Origin: Spirochaetaceae bacterium
GTDB lineage: Bacteria > Spirochaetota > Spirochaetia > SZUA-6 > Bin103
Assembly (NCBI GenBank): GCA_028821475.1
Contig: JAPPGB010000131.1
Coordinates: 1 to 59,331 of the forward strand
Reading direction: 5' to 3'
DNA length: 59,331 nt
Shown: piece by piece, positions 20,564 through 34,331 of the stretch
How the letters are laid out: the number at the start of each line of letters is the position of its first letter
Position numbering within the stretch: position 1 is the first letter of the stretch
Position numbers and translations under genes: made by a program
The notes under the pieces: model-generated
The model's database searches: none
What the model was told of the DNA's origin: nothing
What the model saw: only the letters and a program-made list of their open reading frames with translations

Positions 20564-23500
20564 CTACGGCGCGGCTACGTACACCTGCGTGAACTCCACC
20601 GGACCGTGGAGGGTACGCAGTGCGATCACGTCGCCGCCACGCACGCCCGTACCGACGTTGACGGTGAGTTGCTCCTCGCCGTTGACCAGGAGCGTCGTCA
20701 TGCCCGTGTCGCTGTAGAGTGCCTCCACGTTGATCATCGAGGCGAGGCCATGCGGGATCCTGCTGCTCGCGAGCCACATCAGCGTGTTGTCGTCCGCCGA
20801 CTCATAGAACTGCAGGTGCAGATCCTCCGAGTCGTAGAACGGATCCTGGGTCACCCACAGCAGATAGGAGTTACCGTAGTTCCAGGTATTCCCCGAATCC
20901 GGCGTAGCGGAGGCCAGAATGTGCAGTCCGAATCCAACCTTGCTTCCGCCGTCGGCGTTGGCCGAGAATCCGAACAACAGCTTGTCCGCCGACTGGTCCG
21001 CCGGAATCGAGAACTTGGCGTGGGTCGAGTCGGCGTCGGACTGAACGACCGATCCACCCTGTGAATCCCACGTTCCTTCGCCCGGAAGCGCCTCCCCGTC
21101 GGCAAACCCGTTCACCACGAAGTTGCCGGTTCGGATCAGGTTGTCGCGGGCAAGTTCGCCGCGGGTTCGCACGTCCCAACCGTCATCGCTCGCCGCCACC
21201 ATCACCTGGCCGTCGGCGCCGCGGGTCAGCGTCAGGGTGTGGGCACGGCCCTCGATCCCTACGTTGGAGATGACCAGCCTGTCATCCTGGAGAGTCGGTT
21301 GCGCCGCATCGAGCTGCAACGAATCGGCGACCAGGTTGGCTCCCTCGAACAGCGCCGTTGCGGTCGCCGCACCGGCGTCGTAGCGAATTCGCGCCGACAC
21401 CGGGGCGCCGGCATACTGGATTCCGGAAATGTAGACCTCGTTCGGGCCGGCGGCCGACAGGGAGGCCGCTTCAAGATCGAGCAGACCGATGTTCAGGCCA
21501 GGCAGGCTCGACCCTTCCATGAGAGCGGCGATTTCCGTCTCCAGCGCCATCGCACGGCTCTCGGCGGTGTCCAGCGCATCGTTTGCCGCGTCCAACTCGC
21601 TGTTCGCCGCGGCCAGCGCGTTGTTCGCCGCGGCCAGCGCCAGGCGCGCTGCTTCGGCATCGGCATTCGCCGCATCGAGTTCCTGCTTCTGCGCAGCGAG
21701 CTCGGTCAGCGCCGCGGACAACTCCGCTCGCGCATCGGCCAAGTCCGCCCGCGCATCGGCCAACAGGGCATCCGGCTTCGTCGGCAGGTTCACGCGGTTC
21801 AGGCCGGATACCTGCAACTGCCCGTCCCCGGTGTACTGCAGCGTACCGGAGTATCCGACACCGCCGACACCGACGTTGGAGACCCTGAACGAGTCCGGGG
21901 ACTCGAAGGCGACCGTGGTCTGTGAAAGGTCGACCGAGTCGGGAATCAACTTGCCGACCGGCCCGAACACGTACTGCACGGTGGCGCTCGTACCGCCCGC
22001 GTACTTGAGCAGCGCGGAGTAGGGCTGACCATCGTACATGATGTTCGAGACGTAGATGGCGTCGGGTCCGGCCAGCGAAACCTGCGCGCCGCTGAAGTCG
22101 GCCAGACCGGCGTCGAGTTGAGAGAAGGCGACCTGCACCGCCGAAGGCTGGTGCATCGCCATCTTCATGGCGTCCATCTCGGCTTCCGCCGCCGCGGCGC
22201 GCGCCATCGCGGCGTCCACCCTGGCATCGGCGTCAGCCATGGCGGCGCTGACCATCTGGTCCGCCTCGGCCATCGCCGCGCTCACCTGAGCTTCGGCGTC
22301 GGCCATGGCGGCACTCACCGCGGCATCGGCGTCGGCCATGGCGGCGCTGACCATCCGGTCCGCGTCGGCCATCGCCGCGTCGATCGCCGCGGCGGCCTTC
22401 TCGGCCTCGGTCGGCGGCAGGGTGACGCGGCGAATGCCGGTCACCTGCAACTGCCCGTTGCCGGTGTATTGCAGCGTGCCGGAGTAGCCGACGCCGCCCA
22501 CGTTGACGTTGGAGACCGCGAAGGAATCGGGCGATACGAAGGCGACCGTGGTCTGCGACAGTCCGACCGCGTCGGGAATCAGTTTGCCGGCCGTCCCGTA
22601 TACGCCGAGCACGGTAGCGGTGGTTCCGCCCTCGTACTTGACCAGCGCGGAGTAGGGCTGCCCGTCGTACATGATCGACGAGATGTAGATCCTGTCCGGG
22701 CCGGCGAGCGACGCCTGCGCGTTGTCGAAGTTGGCCAGCGCGGCGTCCAGGCTGCCGAACGAAACCATCACGTCGGCTGCCTGCCGCATGGCCATCTTCA
22801 TGGCTTCCAGCTCGGCGCGCGCCGCATCGGCTTCCGCCCTGGCGTCGGCCACCCTGGCATCGGCGGCGGCCTCGGCTGCGGCCACTTCTGCCGCGGCGTC
22901 AGCCATGGCCGCGCTCACCATCTCCTCGGCCTCGGCCTTGGCGTCGCTCACCATCTGAGCTGCTTCGGCCTTGGCCGCCTCGATGGCGGCAGCGGCCATC
23001 TCCGCCTCGGTCGGCGGAAGCGTGACGCGGCGGATGCCGGTCACCTGCAGTTGTCCGTTGCCGGTGTACTGCAGCGTGCCCGAGTATCCGTTGCCACCGA
23101 CCGACACGTTCGACACTGCGAAGGTGTCAGGAGACCGGAAGGCGATCTCGGTCTGCGCCAGACTTACCGAATCGGGAATCAGCTTGCCGTCCGGTCCGAA
23201 CACCTGCTTCACGACGGCGGTGGTGCCACCGGCGTATGCGAGCAGGGCCGAGTAGGGCCGTCCGGCGTACATGATGTTGGAAACGTAGATGGCGTCCGGT
23301 CCGGCCAGAGACGCGACCGCGCTGCCGAAGTCCACCAGACTGGCGTCCAGGTCGTCGAACGAGACCATCACCTCGGATGGCTGCTGCATCCCCATCTTCA
23401 TCGCGTCGAGTTCCGCGTTGGCCATGTCCGCGGCATCCTGCGCGGCGTCGGCAGCCGCCTGTGCCGCTTCGGCCTCGGCCTGTGCCGCTTCAAGGGCGCT

Positions 23501-26500
23501 CTGTGCGGCCTGTAGTTCGGACTCCAGAGCCGCAATCTGCTCACCCTTTGCGCTGGCGTCGGCAAGAGCGGCTTCGAGTTCCGCCTGGGCGTCGGCCAGC
23601 ATGTCCATCGTGGTCGGCGGCAGTTGCACTTGGCGAATGCCGGTTACCTGCAACTTGCCGTTGCCCGCGTACTCCAAGGTCCCGGAATAGCCGGCGCCGC
23701 CCACGGAGACGTTGGAGACCTCCCAGGCATTCGGCGCCACGAAGACCAGCTCCGTCTGCGACAGATCCACGGAGTCCGGGATCAGCTTGCCGCTGCTGCC
23801 GAATACGTGGCTGACCTCGGCGGTCGTGCCACCGGTGTAGCGCAGCAACGCGGAGTAGTGTTGGCCGTCATACATGATCGACGACACGTACACGGAATCG
23901 GGCCCCGCAAGGGAGACCCGTGCGCCGGCGAAGCTGGCGCGGCTCGGATCGATCTGGCTGTCCGAGATCATGATCGCGGACGGCTGGAACGCGGCGGCGA
24001 TCATGGCGGCGAGTTCGTCGCCGGCCATGTCCGCTTCCGCCTGCGCTTCATCGGCAGCGGCCTGCGCGGCGGACGCCATGTCGTTGGCGGCCGCCAGATC
24101 CGCTGCCAGGGCAGCAATCTCCTCGCTCTGCGCGCTGTTCTCCGCTTGCGCGGATGCCAACACCGCCTGCATTTCAGCCAACGCGGCCTGTGCCTCTTCC
24201 AGCGCGGTAGGTGGCAGCTCTACCATGCGAATGCCGGTGACCTGCAGCGTGCCGTCGCCGGCGTACTCCAGCGTGCCGGAGTAGCCGACCCCGCCCACGG
24301 AGACGTTGGACACCTCCCAGGCGTTCGGCGCCATGAACACCATCTCGGTCTGCGACAGGTCCACGGAGTCGGGAATCAGTTTCCCCGCCGCGCCGTAGAC
24401 CTGCTTCACCTCGGCGGTGGTGCCGCCGGTGTAGCGCAGCAGCGCCGAGTAGCGCTGGCCGTCGTACATGATCGAAGACACGTACACGGAATCGGGACCT
24501 GCGACCGCCACCCGGGCGTCGGCGAAGCTCGCCTTGCTCGGGTCGATCTGGCCATCCGAGATCATCACCACGGACGGTTGGAAGGCGTCCGCCATCATCG
24601 CTTCAAGCTCGGCCTTGGCCATGTCGGCGTCCGCCATCGACATCGCCGCGCTCGCGTGCGCGTCGGCGAGATCCGCCTCCAGAGAAGCGATCATCTCGCC
24701 CTGCGCGGCGCTGTCCGCTTGCAGGGCATCGTTGGCGGCCTGCGCGGCTGCCAGCGCCGCCTCGACCTCGGCCAGGGCGGCCTGCGCCTCTTCCAGCGCG
24801 GTAGGCGGCAACTCCACCATGCGAATGCCGGTGACCTGCAGCGTGCCGTCGCCGGTGTAGGCGAGCGTGCCGGAGTAGCCGGTCCCGCCTACCGAGACGT
24901 TGGACACCTCCCAGGCGTTGGGGGACACGAACACCAGCTCGGTCTGTGACAGGTCCACGGAGTCGGGAATCAGTTTGCCCGCCGAGCCGTAGATCTGCCG
25001 CACTTCGGCGGTGGTGCCGCCGGTGTAGCGCAGCAGCGCCGAGTAGCGCTGGCCGTCGTACATGATCGAAGACACGTACACGGAATCGGGACCTGCGACC
25101 GCCACCCGGGCGTCGGCGAAGCTCGCCTTGCTCGGGTCGATCTGGCCATCCGAGATCATCACCACGGACGGTTGGAAGGCGTCCGCCATCATCGCTTCAA
25201 GCTCGGCCTTGGCCATGTCGGCGTCCGCCATCGACATCGCCGCGCTCGCCTGCGCGTCATCGGCCATCGCCCTCGCGTCGGCAAGGTCCGCCGCAAGAGC
25301 GTCGTTGGCGGCCTGCGCGGCTGCCAGCGCCGCCTCGACCTCGGCCAGGGCGGCCTGCGCCTCTTCCAGCGCGGTAGGCGGCAACTCCACCATGCGAATG
25401 CCGGTGACCTGCAGCGTGCCGTCGCCGGTGTAGGCGAGCGTGCCGGAGTAGCCGGTCCCGCCTACCGAGACGTTGGACACCTCCCAGGCGTTGGGGGACA
25501 CGAACACCAGCTCGGTCTGTGACAGGTCCACGGAGTCGGGAATCAGTTTGCCCGCCGAGCCGTAGATCTGCCGCACTTCGGCGGTGGTGCCGCCGGTGTA
25601 GCGCAGCAGCGCCGAGTAGCGCTGGCCGTCGTACATGATCGAAGACACGTACACGGAATCGGGACCTGCGACCGCCACCCGGGCGTCGGCGAAGCTCGCC
25701 TTGCTCGGGTCGATCTGGCCATCCGAGATCATCACCACGGACGGTTGGAAGGCGTCCGCCATCATCGCTTCAAGCTCGGCCTTGGCCATGTCGGCGTCCG
25801 CCATCGACATCGCCGCGCTCGCCTGCGCGTCATCGGCCATCGCCCTCGCGTCGGCAAGGTCCGCCGCAAGAGCGTCGTTGGCGGCCTGCGCGGCTGCCAG
25901 CGCCGCCTCGACCTCGGCCAGGGCGGCCTGCGCCTCTTCCAGCGCGGTAGGCGGCAACTCCACCATGCGAATGCCGGTGACCTGCAGCGTGCCGTCGCCG
26001 GTGTAGGCGAGCGTGCCGGAGTAGCCGGTCCCGCCTACCGAGACGTTGGACACCTCCCAGGCGTTGGGGGACACGAACACCAGCTCGGTCTGCGACAGGT
26101 CGACGGAATCGGGAATCAGTTTGCCCGCCGCGCCGTAAATCTGTTGCACCTCGGCGGTCGTGCCGCCGGTGTACTTGAGCAGCGCCGAGTAGCGCTGGCC
26201 GTCGTACAGGATCGAAGACACGTACACGGAATCGGGGCCGGCGACCGCCACGCGCGCGTCGGCGAAGCTCGCCTTGCTCGGGTCGATCTGGCCGTCCGAG
26301 ATCATGATCGCCGACGGTTGATACGCGTCGGCCATCATGGCGTCGATGGTGGCCTTTGCATCGGCAGCCATGGCGTGCCCCTCGTCGGCACTGAACTGAG
26401 CGGCCTGCAGATCTGCCTCCAGGGAGGTTACGTCGCCTTCGAGCGATGCTACGTTCGCCTCGAGAGAGGCTACCTGCTCGCTCATCGCGGCGTTGTCCGC

Positions 26501-28057
26501 CTGCGACGCCGCCAGCGCGGCCTCCACCTGGGCCAGCGCGGCCTGCGCTTCGTCCAGGGCGTCAGGCGGCAGTTCGACCTGCCGGATGCCGGTGACCTGC
26601 AGCTTGCCGTCGCCGGCGTACGTCAGCGTACCGGAGTAGCCGACCCCGCCAACGGACACGTTGGACACCTGCAGGCTGTTGGGCGCCACGAACGTCAGCT
26701 CGGTCTGCGAAAGATCGACGGAGTCGGGAATCAGCTTCCCGGCGCTGCCGTAGACCTGCCTGACTTCGGCGGTGGTGCCGCCGGTGTACTTGAGCAGGGC
26801 CGAGTAGCTCTGCCCGCCGTAACTGATCGAAGAGATGTACACGGAGTCGGGGCCGGCAACGGCGACGCGCGCGTCAGCCAAGCTGCCCAGGCTCGGATCG
26901 AGTTGGTCATCCGAGACCATGATCGCGGACGGCTGGACCATGTCGGCCAGCAAGGAATCGAGCGCGGCACGCGCCGCCGCGGCGTCGGTCTCTGCCACCC
27001 ACTGCGCGACGCTGGCGTCCTCGGCCATGATTTGCGCTTCCGATCTGGCCAACTGGGCGGCATTCCGCTCGGCGCGCGCGGCTTCCGCGTCGGCCATGGC
27101 AGCCTCGGCTTCGGCGCGGGCATCGCCGGCGGCAACGTCCGCCTGCAGCACCAGCGCCTCGGCGGCGGCCAGTTCGGCGCGCAAGGCAGTGATCTGTTCG
27201 TCCGCGGTGGGCGGAAGCACGACGCTGCGCAGGCCGGTGACCTGCAGCTTGTTGCCGCCAACGTGCGTCAACTCGCCGGAGTACCCCGCGGAGCCGACGG
27301 CGACGTTGGCCACCATCAGCTTGTCAGGACCCCGGAAAACCAGCCTGGTTCGGCTCAGGTCGACGGAATCGGGAATCATCTTGCCGCTGGCTCCGAAGAT
27401 GGCCGCCACCGTGGCGGTGGTCCCGCCGGAGTACTCAAGCAATGCCGAATAGGTCTGCCCGTCGTACATGATGGACGATACGTAGATCGAGTCCGGACCG
27501 GCCAGCGAGGCGCGCGCGGCGCTGATGTCGAGCAGGCTGGGGTCGAACCGATCCGCCGACACCATCACCTCGGCGGGATGGGGAGCCATCGCCATCATCA
27601 GCTTGTCGGAGGCCGCATCGGCTTCCGAACGCGCCATTTCGGCGTCCTTCATGGCGCCCTCGGCTTCCGAGCGTGCCATCTCGGCATCCATCATGGCGCC
27701 TTCCGCTTCCGCGCGCGCCATTTCCGCCTCTTTCATCGCCGCTGCCGCCGCCGCCTCGGCGTTGGCCTGCGCCGCTGCCGCCGCCTCGGCGGCAGCCATC
27801 GACTCCTTGGCCTGGGCCATGGCCTGCTCGGCCTCGGCCTGCGCCGCGGCCAGCGCCGGATCGGAGTGATCGGCCGCCTGCAGCGACGCGCACGCTGTAG
27901 CCGCGACCGCACACGCCGATAACAGTAACAGGCGCAGATGCTTGAGCTTGAGGCGCGGGCGGGTCGACTTCGGAGGTGAGGGATTGTCGTCCATCTCGTC
28001 AACTGAATCGAATGAATCCGTAGTGAGGGAAACGGTACCGAGGCTTATCTTGCGCAT
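20564..28057 (-). CDS. Giant repeat protein: beta-modules alternating with Ala-rich coiled coils, putative exported lipoprotein
   Basis: 2497 residues with no family I recognise. A hydrophobic segment (about 38-56, LRLLLLSACAVAATAC) gives a possible lipobox (LSAC at Cys49, or TAC at Cys56), after a 37-residue acidic and basic lead. Residues 65-158 are an Ala/Glu/Met coiled coil. Then come ten copies of a module of about 108 residues (AGPDSVYVSSIMYDGQ, GKLIPDSVDLSQT, VSNVSVGG, GYSGTL, LQVTGIR), each followed by an Ala-rich heptad-like linker of 80-105 residues. An eleventh module near 21500-21180 is degenerate. Module starts on the DNA are near 27577, 26937, 26321, 25747, 25174, 24580, 23986, 23386, 22783, 22150 and 21513. 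The last 190 residues are a distinct jelly-roll-like domain. GGAGGAGGAG precedes the ATG. It is probably a long surface or periplasmic fibre (inference). Confidence 0.85.
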   Translation of the reverse strand: MRKISLGTVSLTTDSFDSVDEMDDNPSPPKSTRPRLKLKHLRLLLLSACAVAATACASLQAADHSDPALAAAQAEAEQAMAQAKESMAAAEAAAAAQANAEAAAAAAMKEAEMARAEAEGAMMDAEMARSEAEGAMKDAEMARSEADAASDKLMMAMAPHPAEVMVSADRFDPSLLDISAARASLAGPDSIYVSSIMYDGQTYSALLEYSGGTTATVAAIFGASGKMIPDSVDLSRTRLVFRGPDKLMVANVAVGSAGYSGELTHVGGNKLQVTGLRSVVLPPTADEQITALRAELAAAEALVLQADVAAGDARAEAEAAMADAEAARAERNAAQLARSEAQIMAEDASVAQWVAETDAAAARAALDSLLADMVQPSAIMVSDDQLDPSLGSLADARVAVAGPDSVYISSISYGGQSYSALLKYTGGTTAEVRQVYGSAGKLIPDSVDLSQTELTFVAPNSLQVSNVSVGGVGYSGTLTYAGDGKLQVTGIRQVELPPDALDEAQAALAQVEAALAASQADNAAMSEQVASLEANVASLEGDVTSLEADLQAAQFSADEGHAMAADAKATIDAMMADAYQPSAIMISDGQIDPSKASFADARVAVAGPDSVYVSSILYDGQRYSALLKYTGGTTAEVQQIYGAAGKLIPDSVDLSQTELVFVSPNAWEVSNVSVGGTGYSGTLAYTGDGTLQVTGIRMVELPPTALEEAQAALAEVEAALAAAQAANDALAADLADARAMADDAQASAAMSMADADMAKAELEAMMADAFQPSVVMISDGQIDPSKASFADARVAVAGPDSVYVSSIMYDGQRYSALLRYTGGTTAEVRQIYGSAGKLIPDSVDLSQTELVFVSPNAWEVSNVSVGGTGYSGTLAYTGDGTLQVTGIRMVELPPTALEEAQAALAEVEAALAAAQAANDALAADLADARAMADDAQASAAMSMADADMAKAELEAMMADAFQPSVVMISDGQIDPSKASFADARVAVAGPDSVYVSSIMYDGQRYSALLRYTGGTTAEVRQIYGSAGKLIPDSVDLSQTELVFVSPNAWEVSNVSVGGTGYSGTLAYTGDGTLQVTGIRMVELPPTALEEAQAALAEVEAALAAAQAANDALQADSAAQGEMIASLEADLADAHASAAMSMADADMAKAELEAMMADAFQPSVVMISDGQIDPSKASFADARVAVAGPDSVYVSSIMYDGQRYSALLRYTGGTTAEVKQVYGAAGKLIPDSVDLSQTEMVFMAPNAWEVSNVSVGGVGYSGTLEYAGDGTLQVTGIRMVELPPTALEEAQAALAEMQAVLASAQAENSAQSEEIAALAADLAAANDMASAAQAAADEAQAEADMAGDELAAMIAAAFQPSAIMISDSQIDPSRASFAGARVSLAGPDSVYVSSIMYDGQHYSALLRYTGGTTAEVSHVFGSSGKLIPDSVDLSQTELVFVAPNAWEVSNVSVGGAGYSGTLEYAGNGKLQVTGIRQVQLPPTTMDMLADAQAELEAALADASAKGEQIAALESELQAAQSALEAAQAEAEAAQAAADAAQDAADMANAELDAMKMGMQQPSEVMVSFDDLDASLVDFGSAVASLAGPDAIYVSNIMYAGRPYSALLAYAGGTTAVVKQVFGPDGKLIPDSVSLAQTEIAFRSPDTFAVSNVSVGGNGYSGTLQYTGNGQLQVTGIRRVTLPPTEAEMAAAAIEAAKAEAAQMVSDAKAEAEEMVSAAMADAAAEVAAAEAAADARVADARAEADAARAELEAMKMAMRQAADVMVSFGSLDAALANFDNAQASLAGPDRIYISSIMYDGQPYSALVKYEGGTTATVLGVYGTAGKLIPDAVGLSQTTVAFVSPDSFAVSNVNVGGVGYSGTLQYTGNGQLQVTGIRRVTLPPTEAEKAAAAIDAAMADADRMVSAAMADADAAVSAAMADAEAQVSAAMAEADQMVSAAMADADARVDAAMARAAAAEAEMDAMKMAMHQPSAVQVAFSQLDAGLADFSGAQVSLAGPDAIYVSNIMYDGQPYSALLKYAGGTSATVQYVFGPVGKLIPDSVDLSQTTVAFESPDSFRVSNVGVGGVGYSGTLQYTGDGQLQVSGLNRVNLPTKPDALLADARADLADARAELSAALTELAAQKQELDAANADAEAARLALAAANNALAAANSELDAANDALDTAESRAMALETEIAALMEGSSLPGLNIGLLDLEAASLSAAGPNEVYISGIQYAGAPVSARIRYDAGAATATALFEGANLVADSLQLDAAQPTLQDDRLVISNVGIEGRAHTLTLTRGADGQVMVAASDDGWDVRTRGELARDNLIRTGNFVVNGFADGEALPGEGTWDSQGGSVVQSDADSTHAKFSIPADQSADKLLFGFSANADGGSKVGFGLHILASATPDSGNTWNYGNSYLLWVTQDPFYDSEDLHLQFYESADDNTLMWLASSRIPHGLASMINVEALYSDTGMTTLLVNGEEQLTVNVGTGVRGGDVIALRTLHGPVEFTQVYVAAP
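24727..26093. repeat. Near-identical tandem repeat, 573-base period, inside the giant gene
   Basis: The stretch from about 24727 to 25520 reads the same as 25300 to 26093 when shifted by 573 bases, with no difference seen by eye. The unit is 191 codons, one beta-module plus one linker. Outside it, neighbouring modules differ at many positions, and the next unit toward the gene 3' end is 594 bases long because of 7 extra linker codons. This is the mark of a recent unit duplication, and such arrays easily gain or lose copies or collapse in assembly. Confidence 0.9.
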
Positions 28058-28224
28058 GTGCTCCTCCTCCGTAGCTTGGCGCCGCGCACCGCCGTAACCC
28101 GCGCCCACGCCGTGCCGGAGAATATTTTGTTGTCTAGCTTGAACGATAGCGGCGGGCGTGTCCACTACTTTCGAACGGACACGGTGCCGGCACTTTCGCG
28201 CAAGCGTGCGATCTATCCTGCGCT

Positions 28225-28675: not shown

Positions 28676-29740
28676 CTACAGCGACAAGAGCTCCAACTCG
28701 AATACCAGGAACGAGTCGGGAGGTATCACTCCGGGCACGCCGCGACGTCCGTAGCCGAGTTCCGGCGGAATGATCACGGTGCGCTGTTCGCCCTGCACCA
28801 TGTCCAGGAGCGCCTCGTTGACGCCCGCGATGAGCTGTCCGATGGTGAACTGCGCCGGGCTGCCCCGGTCGTGCGAGCTGTCGAACTTGGTACCGTCGAG
28901 CAGCTTGCCCGTATAGTGAACCGTGACCGCCTGGCCCTGCTTCGGCTTCTCGGTTCCGGAGCCGGCGGCGGTGACCTGGTACCACAGACCGGACTCCGTG
29001 GTCACCGCGTCTGGCCAGGTGGCGGCGATGATCCGTTCGGCCTCGGCGCGCTCCTCGGCCGCGGCCCGTTGCGACCGCCCCCCTACTTGCTCGAGCAGAG
29101 CGTCGAACCGTTCCTGGTCGACGCCGTAAGCCTCCGCGTCGCTGCCGATGCGGAGGATCTTCACCTCTTCGATGGTGTCGCCCTGCTTCACCGCATTCAC
29201 GACATCCTGTCCTTGAACGACCCGCCCGAATACCGTGTGGCGCCCGTCGAGCCACGGCGTCGCGACGTGGGTAATGAAGAACTGGCTGCCGTTGGTGTTG
29301 GGGCCGGCGTTGGCCATCGACAGCACGCCGGGGCCGTCGTGGGTCAGCTCGGGAACGATCTCGTCGGGGAACGAGTACCCCGGTCCGCCGCTGCCGGTGC
29401 CGTGCGGGTCGCCGCCCTGAATCATGAACTCGGGAATGACCCGGTGGAACGCGAGGCCGTCGTAGTACGGTCCGGGGTTCCGGTTCTGGAACGCTATGGT
29501 GCCCTCCGCGAGGCCGACGAAGTTGGCCACGGTCAGCGGCGCGCGTTCATGTTCGAGCAGCAGGTAGATGGTGCCGTGGGTCGTCTTGAGGGCTGCGTAC
29601 AGGCCGTCGTCGAGCTTCGGTTGCTGTTCGCCCGATGCGCACGACGTCAGGGTCACGGCAAGCGCCGGCAGCAGCACCGGCAACGTGGCGAGCCGACGGC
29701 CCTGCGGCAGGAGTCGGTGGAGCGGGTGTCGATTGATCAT
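28676..29740 (-). CDS. Dual-domain peptidyl-prolyl isomerase lipoprotein (cyclophilin + FKBP)
   Basis: A 354-residue lipoprotein. The signal ends with lipobox LTSC, giving a lipidated Cys at about residue 34. The cyclophilin domain (about 50-200) has [33 protein letters not shown] and [12 protein letters not shown], all active-site landmarks. The FKBP domain (about 250-354) has [28 protein letters not shown] and a final FELELLSL. It would assist folding of exported proteins in the periplasm. Cyclophilin-then-FKBP fusions are rare; to my recollection spirochaetes are among the bacteria that have them. It lies in a run with the RNHCP gene, which overlaps its end. Confidence 0.93.
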
Positions 29741-29784
29741 GTCGGGGCAGTGTATTGCAGCTTCCGAGGCCCCGGCAACAGACT

Positions 29785-30702
29785 CTAACGGCTGCGAGCG
29801 GCAAGAATTACCCACGTAAGGGTAGAAATCCCGCGGTCCGGGCCGGTGCGCAGCCCGCCGCGCTCCGGAAGCGCTGCCCCGAGCCACTCGGCAGTTCCGG
29901 TGACGTCGTCCACGCTGAAGAACGCCAAGTCCGCTCCGTCACCGTCGAACCCGGGCGGCGGCATCGCGTGCAGCGCCAGCGGTTCCCCGAGCCTTGCCCC
30001 GAATGGATGCAGGGCCCACATCGCCAGGGGCCGGTAGCGCGCGTCCGGCGCCGCCAACTCGTACTCCGGCCATGCCTCGGGCGGAATCCGGGCGCCGCCG
30101 ATCACCGCGGACGCCGCACCGCCGGTGCCGGCGCCGGTTGCCCGTTGCAGTGCGCCCAGGTCGACCGGCCCGGAGGGAACCAGGCTCAGCCCGGCGAACT
30201 CGACCGGCTCCGTGCCCTCCCAGCCGATCGCCGTGGCGTCGTGCAACTGCACCGGCGGCAGGTCCCGGCCGGCCGCGGTCAACTCCACCGGCAGCACTAC
30301 GGAGGTGAGGGTGCGCCCCGCCACCGATCCGCCGCGTACGTCCAGGACGTAGCGCTCCACCGGCAGCGACGGATAATGGAACCGGCCCGATTCGTCAGTG
30401 GTGGTGGGCCAGCAGGCGCTCGCGCACATCGCCACCGACACGTCGGGCAGCGGAGCGCCGCCGGCGTCGGTCACCACTCCGCCGAACGGCGCGTGGCCGG
30501 CTGCGGCGGTCCCGGACGCCGCGCCGTCACGGAATGCTGCATCGAGTCCGGCCGCCGGCTCGCTCCGACCTCTGCCGTGAGCAGTGTCGGGGGACACGAG
30601 GAGGCCGGTGGCCAGCATGCAGATCACGGCGGCAACTGCGCCGCCCCCGCGCCGACGGCGCGGTCCGCACGTGCCGCAAACGGAAACGTGGCGGCCTGTC
30701 AC
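29785..30702 (-). CDS. Secreted protein with a carboxypeptidase-regulatory-like beta domain
   Basis: A 305-residue protein. A signal anchor or peptide is at about residues 20-42 ([20 protein letters not shown]). Residues about 72-135 form an Ig-like module: [19 protein letters not shown], then [13 protein letters not shown] and YVLDV, the usual pattern of the carboxypeptidase regulatory-like fold. The rest (about 145-305) is not recognised but contains proline-rich and DxDGAD-like acidic loops. The ATG overlaps the stop of the DUF1223 gene (ATGA). It may act with that protein at the cell surface; function is unknown. Confidence 0.7.
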
Positions 30703-31508: not shown

Positions 31509-32576
31509 TCAGCGATCGGAATCGCCGTGCGCCGAGTGCGAACCCAGCGTAATCTCGCCGCCCTGTTCGAGTTCGCGGATCGTCGCGGCCACCCGCTGCT
31601 GGGCAGCTTCGACGGCGCCGAGACGAATGTTGCCGAGCGCCCGCATGGCGTCCTGCAGCAATGCCGCGCCGCGCTTCGACATGGCGCCGGTGACGCGCTC
31701 CGCCATGTCCTGGTCTACCGCCTTCAGCGCCGCGGCAAGATCGTTGCGGCTCACTGCGCGCAGCACGCGCCGCAGCGAGCCGTCGTCGAGCAGCCACAGA
31801 TCCTCGAACGCGAACATCTGCTGCTTCAGTTCGTCGCTGAGCGCCGGATCCTCGTCCCCTATGGCATCGATGATGGTGCGCTCGGTGGCGCGGTCCAGGT
31901 GATGCAGGATCTTCAGCACGCGTCGGTTACCGCCCGACACGACGTACGCGTTGTCGGTACGCTTGCGCGAGACTCTCGATACTCTGGCGAGACGGCGCTG
32001 CAATACTCGCTCCACCTCGACGACCACCTCCGGGATGGTCTGCTCCAGGGTGGCGACGCGGCGCGCCACGTCCGCCTGCACCGTGTAGGGCAGGCTGGCG
32101 AGCAGCGCTGCCGCGTCATCCGGCTTCAGGTAGGCAAGGACCAGCGCGATGGTCTGCGGGTGTTCGCCGCGTATGGACGCCAGCACCTGTCCGGAGTCGG
32201 AACGGCGTACGAATCCGAACGGCCGGGCGTGCAGCGCCCGCGTCACTCGCCCGATCATGGCTACCGCCCGTTCCGCGCCGAGCGATTTTTCGAGCACGTC
32301 GCGCGCGTAATCGAGGCCGCCGCCACGGTTCGCGCCGCGGGTCAGCATGAGTTTCTGGAATTCGGCGAGCGCGGCGTCCTGCTGAGCGGGGGCTACCTGC
32401 CCCAACTGCGCAATCGCCAGGGAGAGCTGTTCTATTTCGTGTTCGTCGAGATGCTCGAAGATCCGTGCGGCAAGATCGGTGCCGAGCAGCACCAGAATCA
32501 CCGCTGCCTTCTGCTGCCCGGTAAGGTGACCCCCGGGCGCGGCGTCCGGAGGTTCGCCGGCTCCCGCCGCCCTCAT
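31509..32576 (-). CDS. fliG: Flagellar motor switch protein FliG
   Basis: A 355-residue protein with the three FliG domains. FliG-N has LTGQQKAAVILVLLGTD and ARIFEHLDEHEIEQLSLAIA. FliG-M has IRGEHPQTIALVLAYL. FliG-C has LKQQMFAFEDLWLLDDGSLRRVLR, where the charged torque helix normally reads MFVFEDIxxLDDRSIQRVLR. The C-terminal LEQGGEI matches as well. It sits on the cytoplasmic face of the rotor and sets rotation direction. No other flagellar gene is nearby, which is common for extra FliG copies in spirochaetes. Which paralogue this is cannot be told. Confidence 0.93.
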   Translation of the reverse strand: MRAAGAGEPPDAAPGGHLTGQQKAAVILVLLGTDLAARIFEHLDEHEIEQLSLAIAQLGQVAPAQQDAALAEFQKLMLTRGANRGGGLDYARDVLEKSLGAERAVAMIGRVTRALHARPFGFVRRSDSGQVLASIRGEHPQTIALVLAYLKPDDAAALLASLPYTVQADVARRVATLEQTIPEVVVEVERVLQRRLARVSRVSRKRTDNAYVVSGGNRRVLKILHHLDRATERTIIDAIGDEDPALSDELKQQMFAFEDLWLLDDGSLRRVLRAVSRNDLAAALKAVDQDMAERVTGAMSKRGAALLQDAMRALGNIRLGAVEAAQQRVAATIRELEQGGEITLGSHSAHGDSDR

Positions 32577-32984: not shown

Positions 32985-33321
32985 GTTCTATCTCCTGCAG
33001 AACCTCGTTCTCCTCCGACCGGTCAACCGCGACTAAGGGGGCAGTCAGTCTTGAACGGCGGCGATACAACGAAAGTCGACCAAACAGGGGAAACTGCGTC
33101 CGTGCCCGCAGCGGGCGCGCGATTGGTGGGGTGGGAGGGAAGTGAGTAGTCTTGCGCCCCGAAGTGTATAGCTATCGGTGCCGGCGGGTCAACGTGTCAC
33201 GAAGCCCCGGCATCCGAGTTGGCAGTCGCGGCGAAACCGCGCGCCCGGTATTGACCATTCGTGGCGTTTCGATGCATTCTGCGCGGCACAACGAGAGCCG
33301 CGTGCGCTGACGCGGCGAAAC
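32985..33321. other. Intergenic region between the RRM gene and tRNA-Val, regulatory
   Basis: 337 bases with no convincing coding frame. It must carry the promoter and leader of the RRM gene (minus strand) and the promoter of the tRNA (plus strand). I find one plausible tRNA promoter (33251-33280) and no clear promoter pair for the RRM gene. Nothing else is recognised. Confidence 0.5.
33251..33280 (+). promoter_or_regulatory. Possible promoter of tRNA-Val
   Basis: TTGACC (33251-33256), 18 bases, then CATTCT (33275-33280). This is five-of-six for the -35 box and three-of-six for the -10 box. It would leave a leader of about 35 bases before the mature tRNA at 33322. Confidence 0.4.
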
Positions 33322-33395
33322 GGGCGGTTAGCTCAGTTGGCTAGAGCACTAGCTCGACACGCTAGGGGTCACTGGTTCGAGTCCAGTACCGCCCA
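33322..33395 (+). tRNA. tRNA-Val (anticodon GAC), with C at position 33
   Basis: 74 bases fold as a full cloverleaf. The acceptor stem is GGGCGGT/ACCGCCC with discriminator A (33395), the D stem GCTC/GAGC, the anticodon stem CTAGC/GCTAG, and the T arm ACTGG-TTCGAGT-CCAGT. CCA is not encoded. The anticodon loop reads TCGACAC, so position 34-36 is GAC (Val) and position 33 is C, where U33 is nearly universal. Position 38 is also C. The rest of the sequence is like ordinary bacterial tRNA-Val(GAC). Confidence 0.92.
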
Positions 33396-33536
33396 AGCCC
33401 TGCCCATGCGTTGCACGGTGAACCTGCGCCCGACGAGCGCAAGGAACGGTGACTGGTCCGCGAAGGCCGGCCGGCGGCAGGTGCCTGGGCAGCGGTCTTC
33501 ATCGTCTTCCATGTCACGGAGTGGCCGAACAGATAC

Positions 33537-34331
33537 ATGACGGATTCGCAAAACCCCGGCAGTCGTCCGCGTCATGGCGGAGCACTGTCCAAACTGTCCA
33601 AGGAAGCCATCAACGAGCTTCCTGCCGGCAGCTTTCCGGGCCGCATCGAGGTGGTCGAGGGAACGCATGCGGCATCCGCCGCCTGCGATGCCCTGCGCAC
33701 CGGCGCGGCGCACGGCGAGATGGCGGTGCTCGGTTTCGACACCGAGTCGCGGCCCGCGTTCCGGCGTGGCGAACGCCACCCCATCGCCCTGGTACAGCTC
33801 GCCAGCGCCGACTTGGCGTGCCTGTTCCGCATCGACCCGCGGCTCGGTCCGCCGCCGCCGTTGCACGAGCTGCTTGCCAACCGTGAGGTGGTCAAGGTGG
33901 CGCAGGCGCCCGCGGACGAGGTGCGTGAACTGCGCGACCGCTGGCGCGTGGAGGTGCGCCGGGTGGTCGACCTGGTCCCGATCGCGCGCGCGGCCGGCTG
34001 CACCCCGCTGAGCCTGCGCGCCCTCGCCGCCGCCTACCTTTCGATTCGCATCTCCAAGGGGGCACAGACCTCCAACTGGGCGGCGCCGCGGCTCAGCGAG
34101 CGGCAGCGCCGCTACGCCGCCACCGATGCCTGGGCGTGCCGGGAGATATTCCTTGCCATGGGTTCGCCGCCGGCTGCCGAACTGCGCCTGAACGACGCCA
34201 CGCCGTCCGCTCGTGGCGCACGACGGCGCCGCCCCCGGCGGCGTTCCGTATCGCCGCCGGAGGCGGAGCGCCGAGACGCCGGACGATCCGGTTCGGGGCG
34301 CGTCCCCGCGGCGCGTGCGAGGGGGAGTTGA
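33537..34331 (+). CDS. 3'-5' exonuclease domain protein (RNase D-like)
   Basis: A 264-residue protein. The DEDDy motifs are present: VLGFDTESRP (Exo I, D-x-E), VAQAPADEVREL (Exo II region), and YAATDAWACREIF (Exo III, Y...D). This is the RNase D/WRN-exonuclease core without the HRDC domain. The last 55 residues are Arg/Ser-rich and probably disordered. It probably trims structured RNAs such as tRNA 3' ends, fitting its place just after a tRNA gene (inference). A lipoprotein gene starts 3 bases past its stop. Confidence 0.82.
   Translation: MTDSQNPGSRPRHGGALSKLSKEAINELPAGSFPGRIEVVEGTHAASAACDALRTGAAHGEMAVLGFDTESRPAFRRGERHPIALVQLASADLACLFRIDPRLGPPPPLHELLANREVVKVAQAPADEVRELRDRWRVEVRRVVDLVPIARAAGCTPLSLRALAAAYLSIRISKGAQTSNWAAPRLSERQRRYAATDAWACREIFLAMGSPPAAELRLNDATPSARGARRRRPRRRSVSPPEAERRDAGRSGSGRVPAARARGS

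Follow-up and report, generated by a model that had tools for sequence, protein, structure and literature searches.

A cytidine at position 33 recurs in bacterial tRNA-Val(GAC), probably as part of a tuned anticodon arm

The stretch of DNA analysed here, referred to as the window, comprises 59,331 nucleotides (positions 1 to 59,331 of contig JAPPGB010000131.1, forward strand) from the assembly GCA_028821475.1 of a Spirochaetaceae bacterium. ARAGORN finds a single tRNA in the whole window, tRNA-Val(GAC), on the forward strand at 33322..33395. The gene is 74 bases long with CCA not encoded, and its identification is supported by ARAGORN, by a full-length match to Rfam family RF00005 (scoring 66 bits, where the threshold is 29 bits) and by its identity to the gene of a congener. 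Its anticodon arm has five Watson-Crick stem pairs between the 5' strand CTAGC (positions 27-31, 33349..33353, with G30 and C31 at its end) and the 3' strand GCTAG (positions 39-43, 33361..33365), which enclose the loop TCGACAC (positions 32-38, 33354..33360). The anticodon GAC (33356..33358), as called by ARAGORN, is expected to read the valine codons GUC and GUU by standard decoding rules. Textbooks give U33 as an almost invariant base, responsible for the turn of the anticodon. Here, position 33 (33355..33355) is C, as it is in the congener, and position 38 (33360..33360), which the counts below associate with C33, is also C.

Judged by its anticodon and most of its identity elements, this gene is a valine tRNA. 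The bacterial valine identity list includes A35, C36, A73, G3-C70 and U4-A69 (PMC9976931), and the first four, as read from the gene, are all present. The listed pair U4-A69 is absent, with C4-G69 instead; being an acceptor-stem element it was not taken as family-defining, and neither was U33, near-universal as that base is in tRNAs. The full cloverleaf and GAC anticodon by which bacterial tRNA-Val(GAC) is recognised are both there. The canonical form with U33 (e.g., loop TTGACAT) shares with the window gene its cloverleaf, anticodon, A37, A73 and sequence family, but differs in carrying U33 rather than C33 and, in most of the matches listed for the phylum of an alphaproteobacterium sampled below, U38 rather than C38.

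The source genome (G000; 5.73 Mb in 183 contigs, 95.74% complete) yielded 48 tRNA genes, 47 with T33 and only Val-GAC with C33. An initial annotation had described a tRNA-Val(GAC) with perfect stems, C33 and C38, and ARAGORN, Rfam, the arm sequence and the congener all bear this out. It had also considered that another, normal Val-GAC gene might make this one a pseudogene. With the assembly 95.74% complete, no second GAC gene turned up among its 48 tRNAs, the other valine tRNAs being Val-CAC and Val-TAC, both with T33 and C38. All 74 bases recur unchanged in the congener G002 (100% identity), whereas the aligned pieces flanking the gene show about 81-84% identity between the two loci; no Val-GAC match was obtained in the other congener, G001, which is 81% complete. 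In eight of the nine Pfam-supported open reading frames of the window that were tested, 79 of the 222 valine codons are GTC or GTT, so the tRNA should have decoding work unless Val-UAC takes over. The marks of a pseudogene, i.e., damaged stems or a low score together with another intact copy, were not seen.

Far from being the oddity of a single gene, as which it had first been presented, C33 in Val-GAC is a recurrent bacterial variant. Across 394 genomes of the class, a C33 pattern matched in 69 and a non-C33 pattern in 97, all of those listed carrying T33; 228 genomes matched neither and none matched both. The patterns require exact consensus bases, and genomes without a match are uninformative; the C33 pattern also misses some genes, e.g., genome G007 has C33 yet escaped the class scan. 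Candidatus Marispirochaeta associata (locus L097) carries the TCGACAC loop in tRNA context. Five families of the class (f1, f25, f31, f38 and f42) hold both C33 and T33 genomes. In three of them position 33 differs along with position 38 (TCGACAC vs TTGACAT), and in the other two along with position 32 and often 31 (TCGACAC vs ATGACAC).

A scan of named genomes found the TCGACAC loop in tRNA context at no fewer than 119 loci (those listed being L078-L196). Those listed include Spirochaetes, Alphaproteobacteria (one Pelagibacteraceae among them), Planctomycetota, Elusimicrobia, Desulfovibrio, Nocardiopsis, Latescibacterota, Verrucomicrobia and others, group names being those on the sequence record titles. 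ARAGORN called tRNA-Val(gac) with C33 in 116 of the 119 listed loci and made no such call in three. The 116 called loci span GC contents of 27 to 73%, and 11 of them at 27-30% keep C33 and C38. When 44 of the named C33 genomes were searched whole, 43 gave only C33 matches, four Nocardiopsis genomes having two copies apiece. The sole genome with a non-C33 extra was that of an Elusimicrobia (G422, which holds L120); besides its C33 gene it has a second GAC-type arm with the loop GTGACAT at C36:547-583.

Four phylum samples, each centred on a genome that was chosen for having C33 and is included in the counts, gave frequencies relative to the genomes in which the gene was recognised. C33 was found in 48/107 for the phylum of Nocardiopsis (198 searched, 91 unmatched), 53/95 for that of a Gemmataceae (119 searched, 24 unmatched) and 7/42 for that of a Desulfovibrionaceae (118 searched, 76 unmatched). 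For the alphaproteobacterium's phylum 224 of 249 genomes matched (25 unmatched), and among the matches listed only the C33-chosen centre genome has C33. Bacillota and Bacteroidota are not knowingly in these samples. One genome of the Gemmataceae-phylum sample, G898, has both C33 and non-C33 forms. Two contigs of the viral collection IMG/VR (L203, L204) contain the exact C33 Val-GAC context, which may be phage tRNA or host flank. Compared at the sequence level, the same exchange of U33 for C33 recurs in many bacterial phyla and looks like a working variant rather than an error.

The base at position 33 is associated with its neighbours in the anticodon arm, as counted in 17-base arms typed in 413 rows from 410 genomes. 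Arms with the stem end G30-C40/C31-G39 (GC/GC), a pyrimidine at 32 and C38 have C33 in 95/95 rows, whereas the same loop on the stem end C30-G40/C31-G39 (CC/GG) has it in 6/91. C33 is also present in 64/66 rows with A38, while U33 is present in 92/105 rows with U38 and in all 54 rows with A32; T occupies position 32 in 169 of the 178 C33 rows. Counting distinct 17-mers only, positions 33 and 38 are associated in GC/GC arms with T32 (33 x 38 table 15, 2, 0, 5; Fisher p = 0.0008), and so are C33 and the GC/GC as opposed to the CC/GG stem end (table 10, 0, 4, 6; Fisher p = 0.011).

In Val-GAC genes with U32-U33, positions 32-37 spell TTGACA, the -35 consensus, which is broken by C33, A32 or C32; this is probably coincidence. 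The idea that C33 serves as a breaker of this intragenic word was dropped because TTGACA is kept in many lineages, namely in 49/166, 26/107, 42/98 and 20/42 typed rows of four sample sets, as well as in most of the matches listed for the alphaproteobacterium's phylum.

From these comparisons of sequence, we think it rather probable that the tRNA is an ordinary elongator whose anticodon arm is matched to C33, and that this base functions, unedited, as a 'C-turn'. A functional C33 in the mature tRNA is the simplest reading because the base is conserved, lies in the sole copy found, is kept at 27-30% GC and is associated with its neighbours. On this reading the gene would be expressed and tRNA-Val(GAC) would enter the ribosome as an ordinary elongator still carrying C33, its backbone reversing after residue 33. 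In the usual turn U33 makes a contact from its N3-H to phosphate 36 (PMC8080527), which would be lost with C33, and the 2'-OH of residue 33 contacts purine 35, a contact counted as a stability term (PMC9023292). We infer that C33 would presumably keep the latter contact with A35. C33 would thus be tolerated or preferred where the rest of the arm matches it, i.e., it would be the norm in arms with A38 and in those combining G30-C40/C31-G39, pyrimidine 32 and C38, with U33 as the norm where U38 or A32 is present. Most likely, such a module would set how the GAC anticodon loop is shaped and how strongly it binds, a tuning role like that held to be played in other tRNAs by the 32-38 pair, whose interaction tunes anticodon strength (PMC6720975). 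Among the options first listed for this gene, that it works through another turn is the one best supported, since the base at 38 and the stem end are associated with C33.

Several points weigh against a functional C-turn. The window tRNA is itself of the C38 class, for which RNAfold offers no explanation, and ideas based on folding or on the modification t6A (both discussed below) do not reach the link of C38 and the GC/GC stem end with C33. The phenotype of a U33C change in yeast tRNA-Gln(CUG) has been linked to poor decoding or charging (PMC3664417). Related genomes inflate the row counts, and the tests on distinct 17-mers only partly remove relatedness. The rule for C33 is also not strict, because the Nocardiopsis-phylum sample has arms that differ at position 33 only, both among CG/CG arms with T38 (TCGACAT vs TTGACAT) and among CC/GG arms with C38 (TCGACAC vs TTGACAC).

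Editing, another option of the initial annotation, is possible and on present evidence unlikely. C33 would be deaminated to U after transcription, giving the mature loop UUGACAC with a normal U-turn, and the source genome's Val-CAC and Val-TAC follow the same UU-N-AC-AC pattern as this edited loop would. A bacterial precedent exists in Vibrio tRNA-Tyr, where TrcP acts on C32, an anticodon-loop C encoded by the gene, in a C-to-U edit that ends as pseudouridine (PMC9553926). That case concerns position 32 and has a known editor, whereas no tRNA editor was found for C33 tRNA-Val in a PF00383-family search of the source genome, TrcP-like and other editors not being searched for. The T32 present in nearly all C33 rows could be the editor's context. 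However, the two PF00383 proteins of the source genome are a cytidine deaminase and RibD by NCBIfam, and if the mature base were always U, one would not expect C33 to track position 38 and the 30-40 pair, unless the editor needs them.

No score against a TadA model (cut-off 150 bits) exceeded 71.6 bits across 34 class genomes, whereas four outside genomes gave 130-175 bits, only one of them passing; among 14 control genomes the model matched in 12, five of them above the cut-off. TadA was not found in the 95.74% complete source genome, where the best match to the model is RibD. Two C33 genomes of the class do carry a TadA-like protein of 288-290 amino acids with PF00383 and PF14437 matches, in G030 (contig C1, locus L205, 742-1608; 71.6 bits) and G007 (contig C17, locus L206, 682-1554; 64.1 bits), both below the cut-off. 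Each has a deaminase domain followed by about 130-190 C-terminal amino acids with no Pfam match. The source genome shows no such protein, and we regard it as a lead rather than a general explanation.

An extra deaminase as a hallmark of C33 was rejected, as C33 genomes and their T33 relatives have similar numbers of PF00383 copies and are not separated by them. The copies (C33 vs T33) are 2, 2 vs 2 in f1; 3 vs 2, 2 in f25; 3, 3, 3 vs 4, 2, 3 in f31; 3, 2 vs 2, 3, 2 in f38; and 2, 2 vs 3, 3, 2 in f42. It is more doubtful still that a widespread bacterial tRNA cytidine editor, requiring U32 and a particular stem end, recodes C33, which lineages would retain in the gene so as to switch the strength of GUC/GUU decoding by editing. 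The source genome, whose deaminase loci are L197 and L198, has tRNA-Arg(GCG) instead of tRNA-Arg(ACG), which was not found, and likewise no TadA was found. This absence of ACG and TadA with GCG may be known already for spirochaetes, since Borrelia and Treponema are named among the bacteria with another quartet-box strategy (PMC3711424).

There is a small chance that C33 is an antideterminant for the enzymes that make t6A: tRNA-Ile(GAU) is their substrate, and C33 would keep them from acting on A37 of a similar valine tRNA. C33 has been reported as such an antideterminant for the bacterial enzymes, the determinant being U36-A37-A38 (PMC9654439), and valine arms with C36-A37-A38 are the A38 class that nearly always has C33; for this class the role may be an explanation. 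It covers the A38 class only, however, for the window tRNA has C38 and is thus already without both A38 and U36, and tRNA-Gly(GCC) of the source genome combines C36-A37-A38 with U33.

A similarly slim prospect is that C33 prevents zipping of the loop, in which U32-A38 and U33-A37 pairs would leave a GAC triloop. The frequency of C33 in A38 loops is what this would lead one to expect, and with U33 placed in U32/A38 arms RNAfold predicts U33-A37 pairing at a probability of 0.67. Furthermore, t6A blocks U33-A37 pairing in other tRNAs (PMC9654439), and Val(GAC) would lack t6A. Against this, the U32-A38 pair is still predicted with C33, the open seven-base loop rising merely from about 0.02 to 0.06; such pairing is not predicted for the window tRNA with its C38 (0.017); and tRNA-Gly(GCC) keeps TTGCCAA with U33. 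Loop collapse was therefore set aside as a general reason, as RNAfold predicts it for U32/A38 arms only.

We consider it improbable that C33 wards off a wrong synthetase, e.g., IleRS, whose tRNA-Ile(GAU) differs at position 36. Valine and isoleucine identities are close, and the row that we take to be that of isoleucine (its label is cut) includes A35, U36, A37 and A38 (PMC9976931); C33 in nearly all A38 valine arms would be in keeping. An Ile pattern found matches in 26 of the 48 genomes chosen, and one of these was judged by eye to be no tRNA. Three genomes of the Nocardiopsis-phylum sample (G461, G488 and G512) pair a GC/GC C33 valine arm with CC/GG-ended Ile arms, and the T33 genome G003 has the same Ile arm as the source genome with its C33. 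The comparison of Ile arms thus rejects, or at least weakens, an antideterminant acting through a shared stem. Least credible of all is that C33 is a sequencing error or that the gene is a pseudogene or decaying, for which nothing speaks except the odd base itself: mis-sequencing, raised in the initial annotation, is made very unlikely by the identical congener gene and by the same loop in many assemblies, as is a pseudogene by the 66-bit full-length match, the perfect anticodon stem and the status as sole GAC gene found.

The tRNA gene is flanked by a FliG gene on the reverse strand (31509-32576) and by a forward-strand gene (33537-34331) whose product has a 3'-5' exonuclease domain, past which V-type ATPase genes lie farther along. 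A promoter-like site had been claimed for the tRNA gene, but a scan of 33150-33560 for the sigma-70-type consensus gave none on the forward strand and one on the reverse strand; no terminator-like site was found in the same interval. Elsewhere in the window, a reverse-strand open reading frame of 2533 amino acids (20564-28165) contains many similar repeats like AVAGPDSVYVSSI, separated by Ala/Glu-rich stretches, and cyclophilin-type and FKBP-type prolyl isomerase domains are combined in one protein (28676-29887, reverse strand).

Other tRNAs depart from U33 in nature. Eukaryotic initiator tRNA-Met is functional with a natural C33 (PMC9023262, PMC8080527), but it is an initiator with a CAU anticodon, whereas the window tRNA is an elongator for valine codons. 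The tRNA-Cys(GCA) gene of Sulfolobales, described as having an 'unusual C33', is a natural C33 elongator gene too (PMC7668247); it is archaeal and serves another amino acid, and its authors could not isolate the tRNA. Candida tRNA-Ser(CAG), whose residue 33 is G (but C in C. tropicalis and C. sojae), is likewise an elongator without U33 (PMC1991585, PMC8645108), but one that reassigns a codon in a single yeast clade, unlike the ordinary tRNA-Val with C33 of many bacterial phyla. We found no description of C33 in bacterial tRNA-Val in the open-access literature, to which the search was largely confined, subscription papers being mostly uncovered, and specialists with full tRNA alignments may already know of it.

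Taken at the level of sequence comparison, C33 in bacterial tRNA-Val(GAC) is recurrent and probably tuned. An elongator with C33 that is the sole GAC tRNA found in many genomes is a natural experiment on the need for U33, and the switching of C33 within families alongside position 38 or 32 adds to its value. Rules for engineering or gene finding that require T33 could mishandle genuine tRNAs. Cultured lineages, Nocardiopsis for one, offer a direct way to ask how the anticodon arm is tuned, or shielded from t6A enzymes.
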